From Lyophyllum atratum (Eukaryota; Basidiomycota; Agaricomycetes; Agaricales; Lyophyllaceae), in contig JACGCN010000024.1 of the NCBI GenBank assembly GCA_014905825.1, positions 372,001-436,000 on the forward strand: DNA of 64,000 nt, written 5' to 3'. The translations under genes were made by a program, and so were the position numbers. Positions 44,960 through 63,481 of this stretch are shown here, piece by piece. Within the stretch, counting starts at the first letter, position 1. Each line of letters starts with the position of its first letter. The notes beneath the pieces were generated by a model that was not told where the DNA came from, made no database searches, and worked only from the letters and a program-made list of their open reading frames with translations.

Positions 44960-44965
44960 GTGTTC
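44960..44965. other. target-site duplication, left (GTGTTC)
   Basis: GTGTTC directly precedes TATGACA. The same six bases directly follow TGTCATA at 63476-63481. Confidence 0.85.
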
Positions 44966-44989
44966 TATGACATTATTTATCGCCCTTTA
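44966..44989 (+). repeat. left terminal inverted repeat
   Basis: The first 24 bases of the transposon. They match the reversed right end at 20 positions; the differences lie at positions 8-9, 14 and 19. Confidence 0.85.
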
Positions 44990-45015
44990 TTTGGGTCGAG
45001 GTTTCGGGCTTCAGG

Positions 45016-45138
45016 TTCAGGTCGAGGCGCCTGGGCGGAGTTTCATTTATTTTGATTTAGGTTTGGTTTGATCAGGGTTCAGGTCGAGGTGCCTGGGGTG
45101 AAGTTTCAATTATTCTGATTTAGGTTTAGTTTGATCAC
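45016..45138 (+). repeat. left subterminal tandem repeat (about 62 bp x 2)
   Basis: Two units starting TTCAGGTCGAGG (45016 and 45078) and ending near GATTTAGGTTTAGTTTGATC. The G/T-rich strand is the plus strand here. At the other end of the transposon the comparable repeats are G/T-rich on the minus strand. Confidence 0.7.
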
Positions 45139-46052
45139 ATTTCGCTTCCAGGTTGGGGTCGTATCTGCCCCAGCAGGTTGTTGCCATTTTTGTCCAAGTC
45201 CGCGCCCTACTCCCGGGGTTCATATATGTTTATTGATTGTGATTTATTGTCTGGGTTCTTCTTGGGTTCTTCGCCTCAGGTCAAACAAGCGGTTGGGTCC
45301 AATCTTCAGCCTTCTGGCTCTGCTATATTTGCATTGACTGGCAAGCTGTTGAAAGCTCTTCGTAACAGTTGCCTTTTGAGACCTTGGCCGTTATTGGAGA
45401 AGTAGCATTTTGCTCACGGAAAACTAATCACTCCCGTGGCTTTTGCTGCGCCTCCCTAGGACGGCTCTTATATCAGCTAGAAGTCTTACGAATATGCTTA
45501 AATTTAGTGGCGTGAGATGAGCGCCTCAATCTTCCTCATTGGGTCATTTGTGGCTGCCTCTGCTGCTTCGCTCGACCGTAATTTTCATTGCGATGTGGAA
45601 ATTTTCCCCCAGCTGTTTTGCACATGTGCTAGGCGGGGCTAAGCATTGAACTAAACTTTATTGTCGCGTGCCTTTTTTCCAACCGTCCCAGCATAAAAGA
45701 GGCCCTATGGTGTGCAGACTTTCAACATTCTCATTCTCCCTTCTCCTTTCTGCTGTTTTTCACTGTCGCTACAGCTTGGATCGTTCTGCTCCTATTTTGA
45801 TTACACGGCACCGACACTCATTAATACGCCACTCTGTAAGGATCGTGTCACCTTGTTTTTTCCTTCTACTTCTAACTACCTTGACCGATATGGGCAGCTT
45901 TTGTCTCTATCGTGACTCTGTCTCTAGCACTTACACTTGTTTGTCAACATATCTGACCAAGGACAACTCTCTTTTATCTCCGTGAGTTAATCTTTTTTCA
46001 GTCTGTATTATTCTGGTAGCCTGAATTCTGTGTGCTGCTTGTGGCATAGAAT

Positions 46053-49000
46053 ATGAACGAAGAGACGTTCAGACAATTCCAACAATTTCAATTCCAGCAA
46101 TTTATGCTGACGCAAAATCAGAATGCGGCCTCCCAGCCTGCACAAGGAGGTAGGCTATTTTTCAATACTGCCATATTGGTCTTGCTAACTTTTATGTGGC
46201 AATAGGATCGTCTCAAAGTCAGCCCCCACCGTCAGATCAGTTTCCATCCTCAACACAGGCAACAAATTCTGGCATGCCAGCTCTCTCAGCTCTCCCGGCT
46301 CCTCCAGCTCCACCTCCACGGTCCCTCCCAATTGAGGCAGTTTATTCCAGCGCTCGTGCACTTCCAGCATTGCCAGCACCGCTTGCCAGCTCGTTTCAGC
46401 CCGCTTTGGGGTTCTCTTCACTTGCCACACCTATGGCAGGTTCATCCTCTGCTCAACAAGCAAATCGATCCCGCCTTACCTCAGCCGCAAATACTCTGCC
46501 TCGTACACAACAACTTGTACGCCGCCGAGGTCGTGGTCAGGGTCCAGTCAGGGGACCTGCTACTTCAGCGCCCAGGCTTCGGAACAAAGCTAAGCCAATG
46601 ATTGAAGACTGCTTGGTCCCCGAAAACCCAGATGACATCCGCATCCAAATTCGACTGTATGGGCCATCGGTGAGTTCCTTATCACAAGTAACATAATTGA
46701 GGCTTAAACAGAAACTGTCTTGAATAGGAGCCTGGGGAGAGCGTTGAGCGATTTTTCTTCCATATCGCAGGCGACGCCTTCTGCAGAGCACTCCAAGATC
46801 ATTCCTTGCTATATGATCTCAATCTACCTCTCAACACCAAGGTGTCCACAGTCCTCAGTTCCATTACAACACAGATGGTGAATTCGCCGTTGCATTACCG
46901 TTTTCTATCGATCCCACAAGGAGCAGTAGCTCCTCACAATCTGACCCTGTTGGGACTGCGCAACCGAGGAATTCCTCGCAAAGATGGCCAAATTCGCCTC
47001 CTCCCCTACCGGGTCACTGAGGAGCTTACTCTTGAGGACCTTGCCTGCGACCGACGGAATTTTGTAAACGAAAAGACCATTGATTCTAGTGGGCGTTTCA
47101 TAATCCATCTTGGTAAGCTTTCTTTGGACCAACTCAGGGCTTGATGCTAAGACATCGTCTGTGATAGCTGTTGCTCGGAGCCCTCTATCGCACCTGGAAG
47201 ACGGTCACTATCATACTTGTCTAACCGCCAAATTTAATCACCTCTTTCCTCTGGACAATGAATTTGGACCAGACCATCCAAGCTCCTTGTGGTGCGAATG
47301 TACTGGTGATGAAGAGGACGTAGATGAGCAAGGCAATGCTCCACCTCCATCGGTAGGTCACAATGCATTTTCCTTAGTGTGTATCCCTAACCCGATATAT
47401 ATAGCCCTCAATCAGTAGCAGCTCCAGTGGGCGGACGGCTATACTCGATGTAAGTTCTGCACATAGCGTTGAAAATTCGAAAATAAAATGACATTTTTGG
47501 AGCCATCTTTGGGCTCGAATCGGAATAACAGATCAATCCCTCTTGAGGCGTCTCTGGCTACACTCGGAGTAAACTCCCTGCCTACATCTATATGGGATCC
47601 AGATCACCCCTGGGTCTCTCCTACTCCGACATACGAGGGAAAATATTCCATGGACAACCTTCCGACTCTTGTGTATGAAGAGGCTGCAGGGGCCGAACCC
47701 CCTTTACTGACCGTGACTGGAGAAACCCTTGATGATGCTGCTAGCAAATTTGGGGACCTCATTGACGAGGCTGCACGGAATGGTGACTTTACCCTCCTCT
47801 TATCATCGAGCCGGCATTTCAACGTGTGGGTGTTTTTGCTTTCAAGTGTGTGTGTGATCCTGACTCGAAGTTTATGCCAGAGAAACCGATACTCATGCTT
47901 CCTTTGGGACGGGGATTGAGAACGAAGTGCTGTCAACTTTATTCCAGAGATTTGTCACCAGTCGCTCCCAGTATTTTGTTGAGCGGCAGAATGGTTTCTG
48001 CACCCTCAAGTGCATGACCTCCTTCGGTGCCTCACCTTCTCGGCTGGCCCAGATGAGGAGGTTTGGGGCGGTTTGTGCCCTGCTTTATGTGCGAGGCCAG
48101 GCCCCAGAACTTCTATCCCCCGCTGTGACCCTCTTCATCGTCTACAACTTTGACTTTGGGTGCCTCACTCCTGCGTTTGTTGGCGAGTGGTTTGGAGAGC
48201 TGCGAAAACTCCTTCTAGATTGGAAGGATCTGGGTCCTGAAGGTGATCCTCGTACTAGCATTGAACTTCAAGCCCATTTTGCGGCTTACCACGATTCACA
48301 GGTTATGTCTCTTTGCCTACAATCTCTCCGTATCTATTTCTTACCTTCCATCGAATAGGTTTCAGCATATGTCAATCGTGACGCCAGCACTCATGAGTCT
48401 CTTGCTGTCGATATGCTATACCGGGCAACTCTTGGGGCTGACATATTCCATCATCCTGAGTGGAAGGCCTTTGCGGAAGGTTTTGACCTTCCTTGTCGGA
48501 ATGGCTTCCGTTTTACTGAGGTGCATTTTTTCTGTCTATCTTTATCCGCGCGCTTACGGTATAAAAGGTTCTCCGATGTTTTGAAGGGGGGCCAGAGGTG
48601 TTTCTCAGCCTCTGCGGTATGTCTCAAATCACTGGCTACCAGGATTTGGAGGCTTGCCTCTCAGTTAAAGCAGTTGAAGTGGAGCGTGAACTGGCTCGAT
48701 TGCGCGCGGCAGTTGGGGACAACTCCATCACCTACCGATCTCTCGTCATTGATTTCCTCAAGGGCTCAGGCATTCCTTGCCCAGGATTGTTTGATGAGAT
48801 CAAGTTGACTTTCAGTCGTGCTGTTGATTTGGGTCGCATTGACAGCCCAGCATTTCGCAGCCGTATGTTGGTCTGGGCTGCAACTGGCTCACAAATGCTG
48901 AATATGGCAAATCAGAGGCCAATTCTGGTATGTGCCATCCGTAATGCCTTTCTCGCTTCGCTCATACTATCTGATTAGCTATATGCAGTTGAGGATACCG

Positions 49001-49221
49001 ACATACAATATTTCATGCACACCGCTCGCGCTCAGATGGCTCAGACGGGAACTATCTGTTTTCGAACCTGCTTTCAGACTGTGCGCTTTCCGGCAAGTTA
49101 CTTGACTTGGCTTGCGGGGAATTATCACGGTCTGGGAGAAGCAACCACATTCTTTCAGGCATTTGAACATTGGCTCCTGGTGCAGCTTTTCAGCGCCATA
49201 GGAAACCCCTCAATAATTTAA
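46053..49221 (+). CDS. HECT-type E3 ubiquitin-ligase-like protein of the transposon
   Basis: At least nine exons from the ATG at 46053, which begins with a Gln-rich MNEETFRQFQQFQFQQF. The first join (46149/46206) and the next (46669/46728) keep frame. A Pro/Ala-rich linker and an RRRGRGQG segment come first, then a conserved globular part (VERFFFHIAGDAFCRAL). The C-terminal third has the HECT layout: SLLYDL region, GDLIDEAARNGDF, GFDLPCRNGF, and finally CFRTCFQTVRFPASYL, whose Cys in TCF fits the thioester-forming Cys. HECT ligases pass ubiquitin from an E2 to substrates. Related HECT genes occur next to similar transposases in fish and corals as I remember. The exon junction near 47450-47610 is unresolved. 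Confidence 0.72.
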
Positions 49222-49402
49222 CTAATTTTTGGTTTAGCTACGGCTACGATACCCCGCTCAATATACCCCGCTCAATATATCCCATCCGTTCTGGATAGCA
49301 TACCCTATAGACTATTCCTGCCACACTTCACATTTATTACGACCAAAACTTATCGATTTTATGCAGCCTATCGACTACAAGTAAGGGCGGGCTAGTCTAT
49401 AT

Positions 49403-51502
49403 CTAAAGGCGAGTATGTTTGCAGAGACCGTGTTCTGGTGTGAAGACGGTATACCTCACGGCGTCTCTTCCTGAGTCGGTCAGCTGATTGGTGAGGTACC
49501 CGTCCAGGGAAACAAAGGCCTGGACAACTTCTTCCTTAGTAGCCGATTCTCCAATCAGGCCAAGTCGTCGAAGACCCTTGAAAGCCCCTCTCTTAACAGC
49601 ATAAATAACGCCGCCAAGCTCCTCTGCTGTGGGCATTGAGGCAACACCAGCCACCGTAAGATCCCCAGCGATTAGCATCGCTGTCAACGGACCCACACCA
49701 TAGAAACGATGAGGGACGGAAAGAAAATCAAATAGTTGTAGAAAGGTGGGCTCGCCGTGTTTTTCGATGAATGCTGGCCATTCCATACGTGCTTCCCAAA
49801 GTTTGGGTAAATGCTCCAAACGGCGATGTTTTGATGCTGAGCCGTAGACGTTGTTCCGAACAAAGTAGGACTGCTTCTTGTCTGATACCTGGTTTGAGGC
49901 AAGAGCATCTGCATAGATGGTGTCCCACTCTTGGATGCTGTTGAATTTTCCGGAGTGATTGAGGGAGAATGGTGACCCATAGAAAAAGGCACGATGTATG
50001 AGGGCGCTGCCAAAACCTTCTGGCGTGAGGAGCCAATCTTTATCAGCGAATAAAGTGGCAATTGCGTGAGAACGTGTTGGCGCAACATCGCGGAACGGCA
50101 TGAAGTAATCGGGGTCGGTTGCTAGCTTCCGTAAAGCCCAGTCTGGAGAATTTTTATGAGCCTCGATCCCGTCATGCACGATGGGTAGAAGTCGCCGAAG
50201 ATAGAGGAGGAAGTTCTTCATGCCAATATCTGGAGAGATAAGAGGAGGAAGTGGTGGAGCTTGAGATGTAGAAGAATTTGGCATCCTTGAGCGTTTAACG
50301 GGAATCATCTTTTCCTTGAAAAAGACACGCGTAAGGGCGGTGAGGTGATCGAGGCTGGCTGATTCAGGTGATGAACGGTCCGTCAATGGATGCGTGGATA
50401 CAGCATTGCTGAAAACCTTGGTGGCTTCGAGTAGAGTTCGAGGTCCTCCACGACGATGGGACCGATCGGTCAATACAGAGATAGGATCTGCAAACATGTC
50501 CCATACGCAGTCCAACAGATAGACGGAGGAGGACATATGCGTCTGAAGAGTTTGGGCTAGCTCAAACTTTTGAAGGGCATTCGAATCCTTCGGAAAGCCA
50601 AGCCACTCCTCCGATAGCCCTTACGGCGTTGATGGTGAAGCTGCGGATCATATCTGGTCGAGGGTCAAACCGAGGCGGTGTGTAGAAAAATGGCTCAGCC
50701 TCCAGATCTGGAATCAAAGTTGATGGCTGGAAATCCCGAGAACGAGCGGCGGGAGAACGTTTGGTGTTATGAATAGTGTCGAGTAGCCGAACTAGACGGA
50801 GAATCCAATTAGGATTTTCAACGTGACTCTGCACAAGCGAAATGGCTTCGTCAAGTAGACCATGTAGCCAAATGTAAGGTTGCAGTGAAGCGATGATGAT
50901 GCTGCTGTGGGTTATACGCTTTTCAGCACCAGAGAGTTGAGTGTAACGATTTAGCCCTTGGATATCCTTCCACATTCGAGAGATCTGAATTGCTGTGGCT
51001 GGAGAGGCGGCGGACTCAGAGTCTTCTGCGGTGTTTTTCAGACGTGCCAGGGTTGCCGTGTCAACAGAGAAAGCCATTTCTGCAGCACTGGTTTCAGGTT
51101 TGGATGTCCTGAGAGCGACCAGGCCAGCGGTAAAATCATCAATAGCATCTAGAAGGGCTGGCATTCCAAGACTTGACAGAAACCGCTCAAGCGGAGGCGC
51201 TATTATAAGGCCAAATCAGACGCTGGGGCAAAAATCCTTCTGAAAAAAATGTAGACGTTACTTTTGTTGGGAGACAACTTCTCAATCTCTGAAGTGATAA
51301 AATCATCTTCAATGCTGTCGATGCTGCCTGCTTCACTGCTCGCATCTGAGATCTCACTCGTGAGATCAACACCACGTCCACGTCTCGGTAGCGTATAAGA
51401 AGAATCCAGATCCTCATCCGTATCTGCTTCACTGTCGCTCGTGAGATCGTCCTCCGTATCTTCACTACATAGGGGGATCCATACTTTAAGCTCACTGGAC
51501 AA
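49403..51502 (-). CDS. transposon cargo protein, possible DNA-glycosylase-like (5-hmdU-kinase helical / AGPT-type) domain; frameshifted
   Basis: Exon 1 (from 51502) is acidic (DSEADTDEDLDSS). An intron near 51265-51202 leads to TPPLERFLSSLG. The frame runs to about 50590, where TINAVRAIGG would continue as EEWLGFPKDSNALQKFELAQ only after a one-base shift. The second frame then runs to 49403. In it, LEHLPKLWEARMEW is followed by FYGVGPLTAMLIAGDL and VKRGAFKGLRRLGLIGE. This order (helix, GxGPxxAxxIxxDL, then a GA..GL.. turn) resembles the helical domain of phage thymine-modifying proteins of the glycosylase superfamily, which is only an inference. It is convergent with the HECT gene and next to the TET/JBP gene. 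The frameshift means decay or a sequence error. Confidence 0.45.
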
Positions 51503-51525
51503 ATTTTAAAACGTTGATGTACGCA

Positions 51526-52132
51526 CTAATCTTCCATCTGAGCAAGAGTGTGATTTTCTGAGCCTGGGCTGACGTTGCTCATTTGTTCATCTAGAGGAGA
51601 TCCACGATGTGTCGATATATCTTCCATATCGACATCTATGGGAGCCGGGGTTCCCTGGTCTGATGGGATGTACTCTATTAAGAGATCAATTAGCTTTATC
51701 TACCTTGTTAGCAGGTAAAGTGCCATACCGTCTTCACTATCATCCAAAGAAGATCCACCATGTGTCGATACGTCTTCCATATCAACCTCTATCAGAGCCG
51801 GGGTTCCCTTGTCTGATGAGAGGTACTCTATCAAGAGATCTATCAGCTTTATCCACCTCGTTAGCGGGTAAAGTGCCGTACCGTCTTCACTATCATCTAA
51901 AGAAGATCCACGATGTGTCCATACGTCTTCCATGACCTCTATCGGAGCCGGGGGTCCCTGGTCCGATGAGATGTACTCTATTACGAGATCAATCAGCTTT
52001 ATCCACCTTATCAGCAGGTAAAGTGCCGTACCGTCTTCACTATCGTCTGGGTCAATATCGCTATCCTTATTTTCGACCGCTTCTCTAGCTGATAATCCTG
52101 ATTTAGCAACTGTACAAGAAGTAGAATAATTA
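51526..52132 (-). pseudogene. acidic 51-residue repeat coding stretch, interrupted by TAG
   Basis: On the minus strand an open frame repeats a 51-residue unit, with SEDGTALYLLIRWIKLIDL in each copy. In the third unit the conserved Trp codon (TGG) is TAG at 51700-51702. The frame then continues open to 51526. The stretch could be part of the neighbouring cargo gene or a gene of its own; it lies between the TET/JBP gene and the glycosylase-like candidate. Confidence 0.4.
51596..52050. repeat. 153-bp tandem repeat, three units
   Basis: Units start near 51596, 51749 and 51902 (GAAGATCCACNATGTGTC). The period is 153 bp, which equals 51 codons, so amplification kept the minus-strand reading frame. 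Confidence 0.8.
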
Positions 52133-54788
52133 TCAAATGCCTTTTCCTTTGTCTTGGCTGATGTCCACTCCAAGGAAGTTTTCTTTCAACCGTTGTAGCT
52201 TCTTCAATGACAGCACAGTACCCGAGGTGATGGAAGACGGGGATGCTTTTTGAAGCAATTCGGCGGTGAACAAACCTTCAAAATACGAAGGGGAAAACGT
52301 ACCGGATGCCGTATTGTTGTGAGGATCAAGGTCTTGTGAAGGTGCTTCTGGAGTTCGAATGAGATGTATCAGAAATGAATTATAGGCCTAGGCGGTAAAA
52401 CAGCCACGTACCTGAGGTCATCGAAGTACCGGTGGTGGATCGAATAGGCTGATGGAAGGAAGTTGAAGCTGAACATAATTGTATAAGGGTAAGAACCGTA
52501 GGTCAAATAAAAAAGCATACGCCTTAGTTTAGCTTTTGCTAGCTCTTTCTCAAAAAGATGGACTTGAAGATTCGACACCGCTGCCATTGGATGATCGTTG
52601 ATGGATATGGGCCCTTTATCCTTTGCCCAAAAGCCTATAGTTGGCATTCAAATGAGATCTGAATAGACTAGAGCCAAGAAGGCAGCTCACGTTTGGCTTT
52701 ACTGCTTTCAGCGGTGTCTCCAGCTTTTCTTTTGGCTAAGAAATACAAAGAATTAGAGTATGCTTTGACCAAGAATAGCATAAATACCTTTTGAATTTTG
52801 CACGGCCTTTCGGCGTACTGGCTGGCCTCCGCCCTGGTGAAGGCTGTCGTCTCGATTCCTTTGAGATGGCATCAAAGCCGCGACGGCAGCAGTATGACTC
52901 TGCCATTCCTCCAGATGCACCTCACGAAGAGGAGCGACAGGAATTTCTCCTTCCGGCAAATCCACAAGTGTAGATTCACCTTCCTCAGGTTCCCAGAAAG
53001 CAGAGCCAGAACCATTGGGGGCGGTTTCCCACGTACCTGCGTTGACTCTGGTGTCCGACGTTGTATCCTTCATAGTGAATGCCGCAAGGAATGCGTCCGG
53101 ATCCAGGCGAGCCTGCATATGAACTGGTAATTGGTGAAGAAAGTAGGTGTTGACTTGGAGGAGCGATCTGATGTAGAAGTGAAAAAGACTTTCATCGGTA
53201 GTAAGACCTATGCCGTCGTTGGCCCAGTTAGCCTCGTTGGTGATACCTCGAGAAGCGGCAGATTCAGAGCTAGTTCAGAGTCAGAATTATGAACAAGCAC
53301 GTAAATAGAAACCTACGTAAGACTTGTCATCTCCGGGGGCAACTGAAACAGCTTTCCTTTAGGTAAGGCAGCAAGGCCAATGATTTGTTTTCCGGCGCCA
53401 GATAGCATAGATTCTGGCGGGTAGAGAACAATCATGAAACGATAAGCCCAGGGGACCGGAGCGATACCCGCAGGTGACAAAGGAGGGGATCCTCCGTGCT
53501 TGAAGAGTCCCGAGAAACTCATGATTCCGAACGGAGTGAGCTTGATGTAAAATCCAAAGGCCAAAAGATGAAACCGGCCATATTCATACCCCAGTTGACC
53601 AGCTCGCTCTTCTGGAACGTCTGAATTGGAGACCATGGTGCTGAGACCTCCTTCATCATCATCCTTGTCAAAGTGGTCTATACCAAATCCCCCCATACCC
53701 TCCAATGATTTCCCTGGATACAGGACAATAAGAGTTGGTCCATGAAATGGGTAAATTCACTTACTAAGGCTTTCATCTCCTGCCACAGCTGGAGCAATAT
53801 TCAACTGTATCGCTGGAAAATAAACGTTGCTGGTACTACCAATCCTTGGCATGTTTGTGAGCTCCGCGTGTTGCTTGAGCTGTTTCCGAAATTCTAGCGG
53901 TGCGAATTGATTCATAGACGCAACACCGACTGCAGCTGAGGTCTGTTCAAATGATCAGTTTGTACCGGCAGCATCCTGAAGGATTAAACTTACCGTGACC
54001 ACAAATTTCTTCTTTTCTATGTCTTCTGTCATGCCTCCGTCTGGGAGCTTGCCACTGGCGGTAGGCGAGGTCATGTTCCGAGCTCTTTGGTGGGTGGGGC
54101 CTACAGAATAGCAGCGAGTGTCTTTCACGCCGGTGATTTCTTGACGTTCATAGGCTACGCCGCCTTGATATCCGTCACGGGTTCTTGTAGGCTTATCAGG
54201 GGTACGGGAATCCCTATCACCCAAGACAATCTCTTGGACCATCTTCAGGTCCGCAAGCATTTCCGGGGATAGGACAGCACGCCTAAATATAAGACTCTAT
54301 GAGTAGAAATAAATAACAAAGTTAGAGAACGCGTACCCGTCGCAACACCAGGCCAGAATGACGTCATTCTCGGGGTCGGGACCTTCACCCTCGTTGTGCG
54401 GGCCTTGAAGATTCCTCCCAAATATAATATCGCCGTCCAACATCTCAAACAGACCTGGACCGTACGTGTTAAAAATTGTAAAGGGTAACAGGGTGAGAGA
54501 CTACGCGCCTAACCCTTCCAGATGAGAATCTGGCCCAAGGGGGACCTTTAGGGAGTCTTCAAAACCCCATTGCTCCTCCAGGACTTCCTTTCCGGTATCC
54601 TGGATGTAGACAAGGGTCCTTCCCGGCCCGGAGACATCCCGATCAACCAGGGGGTGAGAAAGGACCTCGTAGAAATATTGATACCGGCCATCGCGGCGTG
54701 CGTCATAGAGCAAGGTTCCACCCGGTACAATGAACTGGGCATTGGGTGTTGTCTGCATGTATGCCTTAATTCCGTCTGGTGAAGCCAT
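52133..54788 (-). CDS. TET/JBP-family 2OG-Fe(II) dioxygenase
   Basis: A multi-exon gene starting at the ATG at 54788 (MASPDGIKAYMQTTP). The dioxygenase core lies in the exon at about 53705-53330. It contains GGFGIDHFDKDDDEGG (HxD, first Fe ligands), GRFHLLAFGFYIKL (core strands), SFSGLFKHGGSPPL (distal Fe-ligand His) and AYRFMIVLYPPE (Arg expected to bind 2-oxoglutarate). All key residues are present. Upstream exons supply VILAWCCDGRAVLSPEML and other conserved parts. Downstream exons give a charged tail with EEWQSHTAAVAALM and QRLKENFLG. Fungal TET/JBP enzymes oxidise 5-methylcytosine in DNA, and the family is known to travel with fungal transposons. Nuclear action is expected. The junction after exon 1 (near 54500) and the last exons are uncertain. 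Confidence 0.78.
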
Positions 54789-54852
54789 AATCGTCAGAGA
54801 GGATGATTATTGTCGTTGTGGATGATACGGACGGATAAGACGCGGTTGAACC
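54789..54852. promoter_or_regulatory. remaining promoter-side spacer of the TET/JBP gene
   Basis: Only about 64 bp separate the TET/JBP start codon from the palindromic end of the nested element. The original upstream region, probably shared with the ULP1 gene, is therefore displaced by 3.65 kb. Confidence 0.45.
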
Positions 54853-55017
54853 GATGACGTCACTTGCCCGCGCAATCCTGTAAAATGCGCGGGCCTATGA
54901 CGTCACCTTGGCTGTTTGCCTCTTAGCTCGCGAACTCGGTCTAAACGTTCTATATATTGTTAAATAGTAACTACGGGTACATAGGTAATATAAAATTAGT
55001 TGGAGCGGAATGGGAAC

Positions 55018-55512
55018 GTGAAGAGGCGAGGGGTCGGACCCCGCACCTTCACAGACCCCTACGCAGGGGATAGGCGCCGCGTTGGCGTTTGCCGTACTCC
55101 CTGCGTCCGCCGTGTCGACCCTCAAGGCAGCGGCGAGCGGCAGAGGCCGGTGGTTCCAGCGTGATCGAAACGTGGAGATGCGAGGGGTCGGACCCCGCAT
55201 GTTCACGAACGCCGACACACGGCATAGGCCCCGCGTTCGCGTCCTCTGATTCCGTTGCCTGGCTGTTCGTCCCTCGGGGCAGCCACTAGCCAGTGAGGGC
55301 AGTGGTTCGAGCCGAATCAGAGCGTGAAGAGGCGAGGGGTGGGACCCCGCACCTTCACGACCACCTACGCAGGGTATCGGCCCCGCGTTGGTGTTCTCCG
55401 AAGTCCGTGCGCCCTCCGTGTCGACCCTCCAGGCAGCGGCGAGCGGCGGAGGGTGGTGGTTCGAGCGTAATCGGAATGTGAAGATGCGAGGGGTTGGACC
55501 TCGCATTTTCAC
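55018..55512. repeat. four tandem copies of a 35-bp GC-rich hairpin, period 152-154 bp
   Basis: Near-perfect palindromes reading GTGAAG, GCGAGGGGT, GGACCCCGC, CTTCAC occur at 55018-55052, 55172-55206, 55324-55358 and 55478-55512. Spacers are similar GC-rich sequence, each with a GTGGTTCGA-like stretch before the next hairpin. Mismatches between arms are partly compensated (for example GAGG/CCTC in copy 4), which keeps the stem. Confidence 0.8.
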
Positions 55513-56026
55513 CAATCCCATCGCGGGGGATGGGCCCCGCATTGGGTGTTCCGATGGCGGCTGGGCCCACCTTTTCGACCCTCATACGAGGCGCGAAGGC
55601 GGGTGCTGGCGGTTGGCGGGGGCGCGATTAGCCGTCTCACATCCCTTTTGAAGGGGAGGAGGGGGTCGCGTGGCGGTTGAACGAATAATAACCTGAAATA
55701 GAAATTGTGACGGTCAGTAGTGAGCGGTGGAGCAGGGCCCAGGGGACACACCTTGGCGGCTCCCCCCACCAGGGGTCTGCCGTCCCTTCCCTTGCCGTCT
55801 CGCATCCCTTTTGGAGGGGAGGAGGGCGCTGTGGGGTGTGTTGAGCCATAGGATACGAAAAACCGGCCTGTAAACTTCAACGAGGCGCGTTAGTATGATG
55901 AAAAGAATCTAAAACATGAGAAAAAACATTAAACTTACCTTAAAAGATCCTGACGTGTGGCGAGCGGTGGTAGAGGTGAGAAAGTAGGCCACGCCAACAA
56001 GGCGTAGCCGTGGGCGCGATGGTCTT

Positions 56027-56092
56027 GTGTGGTGGTGGCGGCGGTCGTGGTGGTGGCGGCGGTCGTGGTGGTGGTGGAGATGGGAGATAACA
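56027..56092. repeat. GGT/GGC-rich microsatellite
   Basis: Repeats of GTGGTGGTGGCGGCGGTC. On the minus strand it gives artificial His/Pro-rich frames, which I do not call as genes. Confidence 0.8.
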
Positions 56093-56181
56093 ACGGATGG
56101 CTGCGTTGTTTGGACCAAAGATTACGTAAGTCATGTGATGGATTTCTCGCAGTGCTAAGTCCCCGTGTTATCTCTAGTCTC

Positions 56182-56733
56182 TTTTCACTTAAGTAAGCGT
56201 TGTTTGGTGGAGGGGTCCGTTCGGTCCAAACGGGCTGAAATCCGTATCGCGTGATCATCGGTTCAAATCGCTGAACCATCTAACCGAGTCTAACCGCTGA
56301 GACAAACATTCACGAATCTCATCATATCCCATCACATGAGCTCGACGCGTCGCGACACCCCTGCGTTCTCCTGGCTGTCAATCGAAGGACGAACACGAAT
56401 TCGCGGCATCGTTGAAGAACATATCCCGCAATGGTCAAACGGCGGGCGGTCACACCAGATCGATTCTTGGGCACACACACTCGAGAAGACTTCGGTATTG
56501 CTCATTGCTTCAGCGCACGACGTCTTCCTGGCGTTTCGGCTTGTGTAGACATCGTTCCTTTCGTATAATGAGTTAAAAGTTAGACTACGATTTTTTCTCA
56601 ATCTTATCTCTGTGATCATACCAATGTATTTTTATCGCAATCTTATCCATGGATCACATGTCGTTTTTTCCTCCTTTTAACACCGTCCTTAACGCCGAAC
56701 GGAGCCCTTCACCAAACAGCGCTTAAGTGAAAG
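56182..56733. mobile_element. 552-bp MITE-like element inside the nested element
   Basis: The ends are inverted repeats of about 38-41 bp: left CTTTTCACTTAAGTAAGCGT, then TGTTTGGTGGAGGGG; right, reversed, GCTTTCACTTAAG, CGCTGTTTGGTGAAGGGC. The interior has no coding frame of interest. Target duplication not resolved. Short repeats of TGTTATCTCGCC follow at 56790-56840. Confidence 0.6.
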
Positions 56734-58644
56734 CAGACCTTATAATAACAGATCGACTATCATCTGTTACATAAGGTTTGTTTGGAGACTATGTTATCTC
56801 GCCCACCGCCATGTTATCTCGCCGTGTTATCTCGCCCGCCCACCGCCAGCGTGCACAGGAGCATCCAAGGTGAGTTATCAAATGTGTTTTCTTTTTGTTT
56901 CAAGTGATTCTTGCATACTAATCGGTCTCCTGAACGTCTACAGATCCACATCCTTTTGGATTCGATCAACAACGAATCGGCGGCCCCCTCCCCTCCAAGA
57001 GGGATGTGAGAGGGCCTGGTATGTTTTACTTAGTTTCTTTTTGTTTTAACTTGTCTTTCTGTCTTACGGATCGTGTCGTTGATGTTTACAGGATCAATTC
57101 GGATATCTAGGGCTCAGTCATCGCGACGGCACCCTCCTTCCCTCCAACACGGATGCGAGTCGGCGAAGAAGGGACGGCAGACCCCTGGTGGGGGGAGCCG
57201 CTGAGGTGCGTGCATAAGGCCCTGCCCGCACGTCATTTACTAATTATGATGCCTTCTTTTCAAGCAGCGCCCTCCTCCCCTTCAAGAGGGATGTGAGATG
57301 GTTGAACAACCTCGGCATTCACCAGCTCGCGTCTGCCTCGAGGGACGAAACAGTAGGCACAGCCGACATCGGAATACCCAACGTGGGGCCCAACCCCTGC
57401 GATGGGGATTTTGACCTTTGAGGTCCGACCGACCGCTTGCATCTGCAAGTTTGGAACGGGCTCGAACTACTGCGAGGGAGTACGACCTACAACGGCATAC
57501 GGACAGCTCCATGTGATGCTGTATATGGCTGGGCGGACAGTGTTTATGAATTTTCGGACGACCGCCAGCCTGGTGTGGACGTGCTTTCGGAGGTGGGCTG
57601 GGGCTTATTGGAGCCATTTCGGGTGCGTCGATGGGATCATAATCACAGCTTGCTGACGAGCTCTCGCCCCTTCCCCAACGCCCCTTCACCCACAGTTTTA
57701 CCACCGTCTTTGTGCATCCTTTCGCACCGCCGTCGGTGGGGGACCGTGTGTTCGCTCGCCGCCCCCATGCCTAGACCCTCAAGGTGATTGTTCAATGGAG
57801 TTTTCTCATCGTTCTAAGTTGTTCGATTGTACTAATTCATCTCGTTAATGTCGACAGATGTATTTTCCAATCATTTCGATCAACATCACGACACGGCTCC
57901 TTCCTGCCCTCCAAAAGGGAATTGAGACAGCCAGGGAAGGATTGGCAGACCCCTGGTGGGGGGAACCCCTACTGTGCGTGCGCTAGCACCGCACGATCAT
58001 CGCTTACTGACTTAATCCCGCCCTTCACGCCTAGATTTTGTAACGAACCGCCTGCGGCGCCATTTGCGTCTATGTGAGTTCGGACACATCCATGAGAAAA
58101 GGCCGAGCGGCTGGCATCATCGTTGTGGACGCTCCGCTCCCTCTTGCCTATCGACGCCCGAAAACGCTGATCATCGGTGCATACGGCTAGGCTCCGAACA
58201 ACATTCAAGGAGATGTAACAATCTCGTAAGTACTCAAAGTTTTGGTTATCCATTCATTTTCTGGTATTTCATTCCCCCAAACACGATGTACGTCGACCGG
58301 CCCTGCCGCCACTCACATCATCAACTGCAGCATCTGTTGGTGCCATCTAATTTACAAAACCTGTAGTAATTACATTCTAATATATCTGTCGTACTCAAGT
58401 AGATTTCTGGTGCGTTCTGAGTATATGTTCTTGACGACGGCAACAGCAAAATTATGACATCACGTCGCCGCGCATTCCGACGAATTGCGCGGTCCCATGA
58501 CATCATACCTGCTACAGAGCTTTTTGCTCAATCCTTTCGTTACCTTATATACTACTCTATAGCCCATGAAATATACAAGCTCTTGGTTGAACATACCTTT
58601 TGAGTATAAGACGTTGCTTCGGTCGTAATTTCCCAAGCCGCTGC

Positions 58645-58727
58645 AGTGGCTGTGACGGCCGTCAAGGTGGCTGTGAAGGCCGTCAAGGTGGCTGTGAGGG
58701 CCGTCAAGGTGGCTGTGTGGGTCGTCA
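58645..58727. repeat. 21-bp minisatellite, about four units
   Basis: Unit GCCGTCAAGGTGGCTGTGA repeats at period 21 just upstream of the ULP1 gene start. It could lie in the 5' UTR or promoter. Confidence 0.8.
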
Positions 58728-58794
58728 GACACTCGCGGGATGTCTCCTTTCTTCCACCATCCTCTGAAATCTTCAAACCCCCTCTGAGTTGTTC

Positions 58795-60798
58795 ATGGCT
58801 AAATCTAAGCAAGTCAATGTCAACGGTAAAATGACACCTTCCAGTACTCTCAGAGACCGTGAAAGAATGGCAAACATGAGGTCAGCTTGTCCCTGTTTCT
58901 TATGGCCACAAGTTGACCCGATGCCGGCTAGTCCGGAATCGCGCAAGGAATTTCGTAGAAACAAGCGTAGATTGGAAAATCTGCGAAAGGCGGAGAGGCA
59001 GCAGAAGTATGACAACTTCTAGCCCTACTTATTCTGCTTTAAATGACTTGTACCTTCTAGAAATGTAGACGCCGGAATAACACCGGTCTTGCGGACGATT
59101 GAATGGCCTCAGGCTATTCCTCCTTTGCCTCTTACTGCAACTCCCGAAACCCAGGCCCTTAGTGTTCCTGCCCAAGTCCCCCAGTCAGTTGCTACAACTA
59201 GTGCTGCTCTATTCTCGCCTCTTTCCGACGTCCCACTGGAGCTTGAAACGGAAACCATCGCTATGGCTGCTCAGCCCGTAACAGAGAGCAAAACTCCTGA
59301 TACGCTCACAAAAGGCTCCCCAGTTACGGGTGAAATTACCGGTGAAATTCCTGGCGTACCTGTTCCAGGCTCTCCACTACCCCAAGGGCCTCAGGACCTT
59401 CCTCCGTCACTTTTTTCTACCGCATCGCTTGAGAAGGATGCTCTTGGGATTACTGCGGGAGCGCTCTTACCCGTTGCATTGATTGAGCAAATGTTAGCTT
59501 TGCACGGAGAAATCGATGACTGGCTTCGGGGCTGCCGGCTACCGTCTGCACTGTTACTTGACAGCTCTCAGCTCGACCGTCGTCTGAATGAAACGGAGCG
59601 TTCAATACAGTCCAAGCTTGCGACGGGAAGCCTGGCTCGCTTCCAAGAAATTCAAATCTGGCAAAATCAATCGGAGTCTGCCAATATCCTCAGTAGAGGA
59701 ATTCGGGCACGATTCGAGAGCTTAATCCAAACTTGGGCACCAGAGGTTTCGCAAGGCGTCATCCTCAATATGAGGCTTAATCTTGTGAATCTCTTGCACT
59801 TATGCACCGTTCTGGATGCCGAACATCATCTCATATGTGCTTCCGTACGGTCGTGGCTTTTAACACCCTCAGCGGGCGTTACAAATATCCTTGCAGATGT
59901 AAGTTTCTTTATTTCATAAATATGCGACATTTTGTAACGGTGTTCAAACTGCAGAGAGCGAGTGATATACCAGCAGACTGGAAGTTTGGAAATCTCACGC
60001 ACGATGACCTCAAGCTGCTGGCACCCAAGATGTGGCTCAACGACGCTCTCCTAGAACACTTTATATCACATCCACCACCACCCTCTTCTGTTCTCTGCCT
60101 TTCTCCATTCTTTTACACCAAATTTCTTCAGAATCCACCAACAGATGCAAAAATATGGGACCAGGCATGGAAGTGGCAGAGTGGCCAGGCAAGTAGCATC
60201 TCCGTCTGCCATACCCTCAACTGATGCTAAATTTTTCTAGATTCCTAAGATGGTTCAGTCGCTTAACACCATCCTTATTCCGGTCAATCTTAAACAAAAG
60301 CATTGGGTTTTGGCTCACGTGGATTTGGAGAAGCACACCATTCACGTTCTTGACAGCTTACGTTCAAATTACCGCAAGAACGTTGATGATACCACTTGGC
60401 AAAAGAGCATCCATGCATCCATCATACAGGTGAGCTGCAACCATATCTGAATATGACATCTCTCTAAGTACAACTTACCACTAGGGCGTCCGTGGATTCG
60501 TTGCCAAGGTATCCAAAAAATTCAAATTAAACGTGGATCTAAGTCTCTTTGAATGCTTGCCGCATTTTGAGGTAGCTACCTTCACATACCATGGGATAAG
60601 GATCTGATATTATCCAAGGTCCCTTTCCAAGATAACACATACGATTGTGGGGTGTACACTATAATGTTTGCACGACACCTTCAAATGGGGCCATGCATCA
60701 ACGACGCCTCCTTACATCCTAAACTTCATATTCCTGTAGGTGTCCCAAATCTCGATATCTTTAGGCTCCAGCTTTTGGACGAAGTCTATCCATTATAG
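58795..60798 (+). CDS. ULP1/C48-type SUMO protease of the transposon
   Basis: The ATG at 58795 (MAKSKQVNVNGKMTPSSTLR) starts a basic N terminus (EFRRNKRRLENLRKAERQQK). Introns near 58838-58910 and 59005-59061 follow, then a Pro-rich linker and a helical region (IEQMLALHGEIDDWLRGC). The protease domain begins around 59960. MWLNDALLEHFI is the substrate-groove segment. The catalytic triad is visible: His in KHWVLAHVDL, Asp in IHVLDSLR, Cys in NTYDCGVYTIMFARHL. The domain ends DEVYPL before TAG. C48 proteases mature SUMO or remove it from proteins. The gene is divergent from TET/JBP across the nested element and convergent with the integrase. It seems intact. Confidence 0.85.
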
Positions 60799-61011
60799 AG
60801 GTTACAGATACCTAGACAAACCGTGATTGGGGCTACCAGAGATTACTTTACTTAGACACTTCTCCCTCATTTACCTATGCTGTTTCCCTCTCCATTTCTC
60901 TCTCTACTTGTTCCTTAAAATAACTTCTTGTTGCCATATGTATAGACCTGGAAAGACAATTTTGTTTTGCTTCTTCACACCGCTTTAAAGAACATGGGCA
61001 ATGGTAAATAG
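60799..61011. other. spacer between ULP1 and integrase 3' ends
   Basis: About 210 bp between convergent genes. Nothing else is seen. Confidence 0.5.
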
Positions 61012-62940
61012 CTAGAAGAGATCTGGATACATGTTTTTAGCCAAGGCAAGTCCTTCTGTCCACAGCATCGAGGCATCCAAATCTTGAACTGCGCCAGCCC
61101 GAGGGAGCAATGTTTGATCTATATACCGAAGTTCTTCTGGTGTAAAGACATCTTGAGGTGCGTGAAGGGGGACCTCATTCAAATGCTCTGGTGGGCCCAC
61201 CCGCCCCAGCCACGACCCAGAATCTTCGTTTCTTGGGTTATTAGCTTCCCGTGACTGCAGTAAATTGTCTTCACGAAGACCCTCCCAGTCCATCCCAAAG
61301 ACCTCCAACTCCTCCTCCGTCATGATGCTATCATCAAGACGAGGTAGTTGATATCCCCGAATGCCATGCACAATCATATCAAAGCCAAACATATCCGCAG
61401 GGGAACGGTTAGGGCCGCCTCGAATCTGAATGCGGTGTTGATTCCATGATTGCGTGAAGAAGTCTAGCTGCTGGTTGATAGTGCCCAGAAATAAGAAGTG
61501 GAGCAGCCATATGTGCTGAGGGTTGTTGATATCAAGACCGTGCCGGATTTCCAGGAGAGTGAACAGCTCCGCCCATGTCGCACCAACTTGGGCAGTTACA
61601 TCAACCCAAAGCCGTTCAATGCGGACGTTGTGTACACTCCTGTGAACATAGTTAGTCATTGAGAAGCGCAAGACGTCATGTACCCTGTTCACCTTCCCCA
61701 AAGGTATGACCCACGACGTTCACCAAGGTTGGTTTCCATCCATGCAGCAACACGAAGGTTTTCAACACCGTGATCACCACGAAGTCGGGATGGAACTCCA
61801 TACAGTTGAGAGGCAAGAAGGAATAAGCCTAACACAGTGTCAGCCAGGTTGTTGTTGTGTGCTCGTAGGGCGGTGATGAGTCGTGAATAGCCATCGATAA
61901 AGCCATGAATGACTATACCCCATCGAATCAAACCTTTACATGCGAATATTGTTTCAGCTCATGAGTTAATGGCTGATGCTACATAAAACGTACCATGCTG
62001 GCCGTCATGATGCCACAGAGAGTTAGGTCCTGGCACACTATAAACACGTCTTCGAATTTTGATCCTCTGAAAGACTCGGTGCACAGGATCAATCCTTATC
62101 AATGATTGCTTTATTCGCTCTCGTGGTACACGATGGCCAAGTCTGCGAAGCATGCCATCAAGCATGGTGATACCCGCCCGGCGGAAATGTTGTCGAAGAT
62201 GGAGCAGAAGAGCGTCTAGGTCTTCAACAGAAATGCTAGAGAGGGGACCAGTGTAGGATGAAATGACAGACTGGGTTGTCGACTCAAGGTTTGGAGAGGG
62301 AACGGCCAACTCTTGCGGAACTTCAGGCGGATTGTCGATGGGAACAGCCTGACCTTGTGGGTCTAGAAAGTCATTGTTCTCCTCAATGTACTGGGCAGAG
62401 AGCACAGATGGCTGCTCTCTTGCTTCAGCAATCCCATATTCGAGAAGGTGATCACGGACAAGTCTACGGCCCACACCCAAGAATCGAGCAATGCTGGATG
62501 TAGAGCGCATGGAATATGCCCATCGGAGAAATTCTGGGTCAATATGAATTTGTGGCCGTCCCCGATGTCCTGTGTGAACTGTTTCGACTATTACAGGTTG
62601 CCCATGGTGGGACTCGTTAGTTGCCTGGTCATATTGTTGTCGGACGTCATTCTGCATTATAGCCAAGTTGTGCTGGATTAGAGCCAGTTCTTCAGGAGGA
62701 AATATTGATGCATACTGCAAAAAATGTGAGTTCCAGTGATAGAATACTAGTTAAAGAAATCACTTCATTGACCAGACCAACATATTGCTGCAAATCGTCA
62801 CCCAGCCTCCAAAGAACAACTGTGTCAGCAGAATTGTTGACTGCTTCTACTATGCTTGATCTGAACCTATGGAAGCGTTGTCGGAATTCATCAAGAAGCT
62901 CAGCAGCAGCAGCTTCAGGCAACACCGGCGGCTGCGACAT
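61012..62940 (-). CDS. DDE integrase/transposase
   Basis: Four exons join cleanly: about 62940..62760, 62713..61994, 61931..61687 and 61638..61012, all GT-AG. The start MSQPPVLPEAAAAELLDEF is chosen because an upstream frame only has a TTG. The protein has an N-terminal helical region (VGLVNE|YASIFPPEEL), a helix-turn-helix (STSSIARFLGVGRRLVRDHL), and an integrase-core fold. In that fold, LWHHDGQHGLIRWG carries the first Asp, VPSRLRGDHGVENLRVA the second Asp, and SVHNVRIERLW the Glu 35 residues later (DD34-35E). The same arrangement (HDG, RxDHGxEN, SxHNxRIERLW) recurs in transposases of fish and corals. No stop or frameshift is seen, so the enzyme should be functional and would mobilise the 18.5-kb element. 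Confidence 0.88.
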
Positions 62941-63117
62941 CACAAGAGATCTAGCAACGTTATGGGCAGTCGGGACAAGTTGATCAGCCTTCAACCGGAT
63001 CAACCGGGTCGGATCATTTGAAGTCCTCCCTGGACGGATTTCAAGAAAACTGAACTTGAATTAAAAACCAAACCCGGAACTGAAAAAGAACTAAACAAAC
63101 TAAACCTCAAGCCATGT

Positions 63118-63285
63118 AACGTTAGACTGAACCTAAACTTGACTTGACTTGAAACTAAACCTGGAGCTCATTTAACGTTAAACTGAACCTAAACTTGACT
63201 TGACTTGAAACTAAACCTGGAGCTCATTTAACGTTAAACTGAACCTAAACTTGACTCGATTTGAACTTCAACAGTCACGTCCAAC
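63118..63285 (-). repeat. right subterminal tandem repeat (56 bp, about 3 units)
   Basis: Units begin AACGTTARACTGAACC at 63118, 63174 and 63230, and contain AACTAAACCTGGAGCTCATT. The G/T-rich strand (GGTTTAGTTTCAAG) is the minus strand, the mirror image of the left end. Confidence 0.8.
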
Positions 63286-63451
63286 GTTGAACCAGAAAGC
63301 TCGCAGTTGTAAACCACACGCCTCAAAACTGAACTTGAATCTGATAATTTTAAACCTAAAGCAAAATATGCTAAACCTCGACTAGAAATCTAAAATCATC
63401 CAAAAACCTGATACCTGAGTGCTGAATTTCTCCAAAAACCTTCATTCTGAT

Positions 63452-63475
63452 TAAAGTGCGAGAAATGCTGTCATA
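63452..63475 (-). repeat. right terminal inverted repeat
   Basis: Ends TGTCATA. Read on the minus strand it begins TATGACA and matches the left terminal repeat at 20 of 24 positions. Confidence 0.85.
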
Positions 63476-63481
63476 GTGTTC
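63476..63481. other. target-site duplication, right (GTGTTC)
   Basis: Exact copy of the six bases preceding the left end. Confidence 0.85.

Follow-up and report, generated by a model that had tools for sequence, protein, structure and literature searches.

TET/JBP genes are known as cargo of several kinds of fungal DNA transposons. In the accessible text of Kojima 2025 (PMC12730594), TET/JBP-carrying IS3EU elements with 6-bp duplications are described from seven rust species, where their ends read TAYGG, and a TET-bearing IS3EU family is described from Tuber indicum. The TET gene is located there between the transposase gene and an oppositely oriented alpha-kinase gene. For the Agaricomycotina the same text names Kyakuja, Zisupton, EnSpm, Plavaka and Helitron2 as TET carriers, and IS3EU is not listed in it. 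Kyakuja is characterized by 7-bp duplications and no inverted repeats, Zisupton by 8-bp duplications, and TET genes are regarded as seemingly passively transferred among transposons. The subject here is an 18,510-bp element of the mushroom Lyophyllum atratum, found in a stretch of 64,000 nucleotides (GCA_014905825.1, contig JACGCN010000024.1, positions 372,001 to 436,000, forward strand; hereafter the window). It is probably a complete, recently mobile IS3EU-type DNA transposon in an agaric, with a HECT-like gene as a likely core helper and with TET/JBP-like and Ulp1 genes as accessory cargo.

The element occupies positions 44966-63475 of the window (C69:416966-435475), and both of its ends are present:

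44960..44965, no strand: left target-site duplication GTGTTC, occurring as a single GTGTTC at the empty site on C87
44966..63475, no strand: complete transposon of 18,510 bp, with ends, duplications and a second copy on C88
44966..44989, plus strand: left terminal inverted repeat, 20/24 identical to the right repeat
63452..63475, minus strand: right terminal inverted repeat, 20/24 identical to the left repeat
63476..63481, no strand: right target-site duplication GTGTTC, a perfect 6-bp match to the left one

A preliminary description, made from the letters alone, had proposed a complete transposon with these very ends and duplications, and its coordinates proved exact. It had given the inverted termini as TATGACA (44966-44972) and TGTCATA (63469-63475); these lie where it placed them, but the repeat is longer than 7 bp and extends imperfectly over the outer 24 bases. 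Among 200,000 pairs of 24-mers drawn at random from the element the best had 17 identities, so that none attained the 20 observed.

The genome itself (64.8 Mb, 151 contigs) was searched with 500 bp of each element end, giving at least 10 scored matches per end. At least two full-length copies were found, namely the window copy and C88:368417-386281 (minus strand, duplication GATTAG), which are 98.5% identical across 17,815 aligned bases. In addition, at least eight short copies of 593-665 bp share both ends, so that the further same-ended copies which the preliminary description had suggested looking for do exist. The short copies keep about 78 bp of the left end, about 114 bp of the right end and all or part of a stretch matching the following segment:

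58453..58705, no strand: internal segment present whole or in part in the eight short derivatives, just upstream of the Ulp1 gene

Because both ends and this inner stretch are kept, the latter at about 70-76% identity to the window, the eight short copies seem to have arisen from a related element by internal deletion. Identical 6-bp repeats flank all ten copies found, and the duplicated sequence varies between copies. In seven of the ten (the window copy and six others) the duplications are perfect and directly adjoining; in the other three they appear once 15 (C86), 16 (C35) or 6 (C88b) extra terminal bases are allowed at one end. The 15 and 16 extra bases of the C86 and C35 short copies are a doubled terminus inside the target duplication, which may be informative on the transposition mechanism.

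The empty site was found as well. Joined through one GTGTTC, the flanks align to C87:41446-41710 (query 89-358 of 364, 92% identity) with the junction included, and where they meet C87 has GTGTTC once, with nothing inserted. In the left flank the homology stops about 70-80 bp from the junction. Since several genes of the assembly come in pairs (e.g. the HECT matches), C87 may represent the other haplotype.

The transposase gene is located near the right end:

61012..62940, minus strand: DDE transposase gene, 4 exons, 583 aa, Pfam PF24764 (rva_4) at 1.2e-65

As had been described, it can be spliced without any lesion to a single open frame without stop, which encodes 583 aa (510-511 aa from an alternative start at 62657). 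In the Pfam scan rve was matched (8e-5) besides rva_4; at E up to 1 there was no further match, and an N-terminal HHCC domain was not among the matches. The acidic triad was assigned by motif to D291, D348 and E383, with 34 residues between the last two (D-D-34-E). A KDZ transposase was ruled out by the rva_4 match together with a profile search of the genome for PF18758, in which none of the at least 109 matches listed lies inside C69:416966-435475. According to the accessible text of PMC10045372, the IS3EU/GingerRoot superfamily is marked by a DDE transposase resembling integrases, by TA..TA termini and by duplications that are usually 6 bp long. Because the termini and duplications of the window element match these stated traits, it was assigned to IS3EU; with its rve-type DDE integrase it fits the IS3EU type, as placed by termini, duplication length and integrase class and not by a tree. 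The earlier judgement of an IS3EU-like, integrase-core transposase distinct from KDZ agrees with this. The large cargo sets the window element apart from the superfamily as described in that source.

The cargo comprises the following genes:

46053..49221, plus strand: HECT-like gene, 10-exon model, 894 aa, model ends hand-picked among gene-finder variants
49403..51164, minus strand: G11 domain, 2 exons, 559 aa, no family, possibly the TET gene's C-terminal portion
52753..54758, minus strand: core of a TET/JBP-like 2-oxoglutarate/Fe(II) (2OG-Fe(II)) dioxygenase, six exons, motifs HFD...FKHGG...AYR, start ATG assumed at 54758
58795..60798, plus strand: ULP1/SENP-type cysteine protease gene, 6 exons, 579 aa, last exon uncertain

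The HECT-like gene, recognized as such in the preliminary description, was supported by structure: when the predicted structure was compared with the PDB by Foldseek, the HECT fold was found at 1e-5, mainly in the N-lobe. A TCF motif lies near the C terminus, and among the relatives P0006-P0015 the TC pair occurs in nine of ten, with a gap in the tenth (the putative catalytic Cys is assigned by motif, in a C-lobe modelled at a predicted local distance difference test score, pLDDT, below 50). The proposed ULP1 protease was confirmed by Pfam Peptidase_C48 (PF02902, 5.8e-22) and by yeast Ulp1 in the PDB (7.6e-17). Its triad was assigned by motif to His449, Asp466 and Cys530, and its last exon differs under a looser gene-finder setting.

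The TET/JBP dioxygenase named in the preliminary description stood in part. The window protein is likely a divergent member, linked to Tet_JBP (PF12851) via a relative alone, and a direct family match was not obtained. Its relatives P0001-P0005 come from Lyophyllum, Collybia, Pluteus and Amanita, P0001 being Lyophyllum atratum FPV67DRAFT_1394420. The Pluteus relative P0004 matches PF12851 at 6.9e-7, its 29.1 bits falling short of the curated threshold of 34.9, and is annotated with PF12851 as precomputed domain; the other four of the five relatives do not match this family. The iron ligands H324, D326 and H379 (P0003 numbering) are invariant in all five aligned relatives and present in the window protein. 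Two TET types were rejected with the hallmarks given in the accessible text of Kojima 2025 (PMC12730594): the AG type (CcTET-like), as the H+11 position (CcTET Asp337) holds Ser in the window copy and Ser/Thr in the relatives, and the PE type, as the window protein has HxD (HFD) and not HxE.

The gene that had been called possibly glycosylase-like exists as G11, but the glycosylase reading was not confirmed: Pfam and further searches found no family for it. A possible likeness to HhH-type or aGPT-Pplase enzymes was not confirmed by these searches. Six of the seven TET-like loci of the genome (all but C60:738640-741416) are followed downstream, on their own strand, by a G11-like match, at spacings of up to 6.7 kb and at some loci as a fragment only; three of nine G11-like loci are without a TET-like gene. 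A chained TET+G11 model gives 1,523 aa with zero internal stops, an acidic linker and some weak splice sites, and the two may possibly form one protein of about 1,500 aa.

Elsewhere in the genome, TET-like and G11-like pairs are located at C130:525737-535783, C1:1745593-1748950, C70:203861-207269 and C64:1805069-1808620, distant from the listed IS3EU-transposase and KDZ matches. Three Tet_JBP stretches (C46:630085, C130:257188 and C63:138365) have weak KDZ matches at a distance of about 10-14 kb, scoring 26.1-26.8 bits against a cut-off of 26.6, which would fit KDZ-borne TET genes.

Set beside the TET-carrying IS3EU elements in the accessible text of Kojima 2025 (PMC12730594), the window element shares the IS3EU type, the 6-bp duplications (of the rusts), the TA..TA ends and a TET gene between the transposase and a gene of opposite orientation. 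However, this other gene is HECT-like instead of an alpha-kinase gene, an extra Ulp1 gene lies in between, the host is an agaric instead of rusts and a truffle, and the ends read TATGA instead of the TAYGG of the rusts. No alpha-kinase was found among the 20 open reading frames and 5 gene models scanned in the element (part of all frames). With the KDZ (Kyakuja/Zisupton) TET carriers of mushrooms it has the TET/JBP cargo in common, and its own genome holds KDZ and Tet_JBP matches elsewhere; it differs from them in transposase family and in combining 6-bp duplications with inverted repeats. The preliminary description had thought of an undescribed class of cargo element, which does not hold, as TET-carrying IS3EU elements are already published in that same source. 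New relative to the literature searched are the agaric host and the combination of HECT, Ulp1 and TET. None of the 35 IS3EU papers searched mentions HECT or Ulp1, in a collection that does not take in Repbase reports, bioRxiv preprints or the greater part of the subscription literature.

The two full copies allow the constraint on each gene to be compared, as pN/pS in raw proportions between the window and C88 copies and with small counts (nonsynonymous and synonymous differences in brackets). The HECT-like gene (0.03; 3 and 29) and the transposase (0.10; 4 and 13) are strongly constrained, followed by G11 (0.12; 4 and 11) and the TET core (0.23; 6 and 8). The window copy has no lesion in any of these models or in that of ULP1. 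The C88 copy has an additional 1-bp indel late in the TET core, besides lesions in three other genes considered below. The divergence between the copies is patchy, with 2.7-3.7% in three noncoding stretches and 0.7% at 56800-58700, as if the copies had recombined.

A sister family is present at two loci, C72 (16,048 bp, duplication CAAGTG, ends TATGACATTATT...GCCATTATA) and C75, where the left end of the copy was not found. The sister transposase has 53-76% identity to that of the window by exon and 35% in an N-terminal stretch. The sister HECT-like gene has 31-49% identity by exon and the same relative place and orientation as in the window element. The remaining cargo differs: the genome search gave no TET-like match at the C72 and C75 loci, and when the window element was compared in translation with the C72 copy, the TET and Ulp1 genes yielded no more than short scraps (the genome search did not include Ulp1). 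Within the sister element, at C75:258956-260766, a protein of 484 aa is predicted, with no Pfam family over cut-off and with PPR matches in the PDB that were taken as chance. Its C-terminal part seems to resemble another 2OG-Fe(II) dioxygenase (HVD...YLHG).

Because the TET-less sister family keeps the HECT gene, and because this gene is under the strongest constraint between the two copies, it looks like a core helper of the lineage. Judging from its gene family, the rve-type DDE transposase would bind the TATGACA ends and insert them with a stagger of 6 bp. Lying between the HECT-like gene and the transposase, the TET/JBP-like and Ulp1 genes would be accessory cargo. The element's 5-methylcytosine may be oxidized by the oxygenase, and host proteins of silencing or repair may be removed or deSUMOylated by the HECT ligase and the SUMO protease. 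The most likely role of the cargo would then be the undoing of host silencing, to which we give about even odds. More tentatively, and with somewhat less than an even chance, the element may represent an agaric IS3EU lineage in which a HECT ligase serves as core transposition gene, in the place of the alpha-kinase of rusts, and which has acquired Ulp1 and a two-part DNA-base enzyme (TET-like and G11, possibly one protein). If true, a single transposon would act on DNA methylation, ubiquitin and SUMO together. The window element would bring mushrooms, with an oxygenase of a divergent type, into the range of TET-carrying IS3EU elements. It would also connect a transposon whose empty site is known with a HECT ligase and a SUMO protease, making anti-silencing cargo testable in one defined unit.

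Several points weigh against the interpretation as an IS3EU-type transposon with a HECT-like helper and TET/JBP-like and Ulp1 cargo, beginning with a superfamily placement made by characters and not by phylogeny. The HECT-like protein has no sequence match to the HECT family in Pfam or to a HECT chain in the PDB, its C-lobe is modelled below pLDDT 50, and its structural matches reach TM-scores of just 0.22-0.28 by query and no more than 0.47 by target, which is low. The TET-like window protein has no direct Pfam or PDB match, Tet_JBP PF12851 included, and its AlphaFold model has a pLDDT of 28. In a profile comparison, stretches from eight of the 18 places of its own genome that match Tet_JBP (one of the eight under cut-off) align with the TET-like protein at H, D and H, and the score is weak (P 0.017, probability 2.6%). 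ULP1 is under weak constraint between the copies (pN/pS 0.44; 13 and 9). In the C88 copy it has a premature stop, and the HECT and G11 frames are broken there by indels.

Among the other explanations, an ordinary IS3EU transposon that captured host genes passively survives best, although we consider it unlikely. TET, Ulp1 and HECT would then be useless passengers, in agreement with the ULP1 ratio and stop, with the differing cargo of the sister family and with the passive transfer suggested in the accessible text of Kojima 2025 (PMC12730594). It is opposed by the low ratios of HECT and G11 and by the sister family, which has kept HECT in the same relative place and orientation at the identities given above.

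Far less probable is a new DDE transposon superfamily separate from IS3EU. The TATGA ends, compared with the TAYGG reported for rusts, would suit it, as would the lack of an alpha-kinase in the frames and models scanned and of an IS3EU paper found to mention HECT or Ulp1; yet the TA..TA ends and 6-bp duplications are stated IS3EU traits and the integrase belongs to the rve class. A chance composite, in which repeats flank unrelated genes by coincidence, can practically be dismissed, and so can an artefact of assembly, for although just two full copies were found, one with damaged genes, ten copies share the ends and 6-bp duplications and an empty site exists.

The largest difference between the two full copies lies in the middle of three cargo-flanked kilobases:

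55266..57984, no strand: stretch carrying internal inverted repeats, with the TET gene on one side and ULP1 on the other

Here the window copy has a block of 626 bp, at about 56166-56791, that is without counterpart in the C88 copy. It adjoins GTGTTATCTC repeats, contains 31-nt inverted repeats and is perhaps a nested short element.

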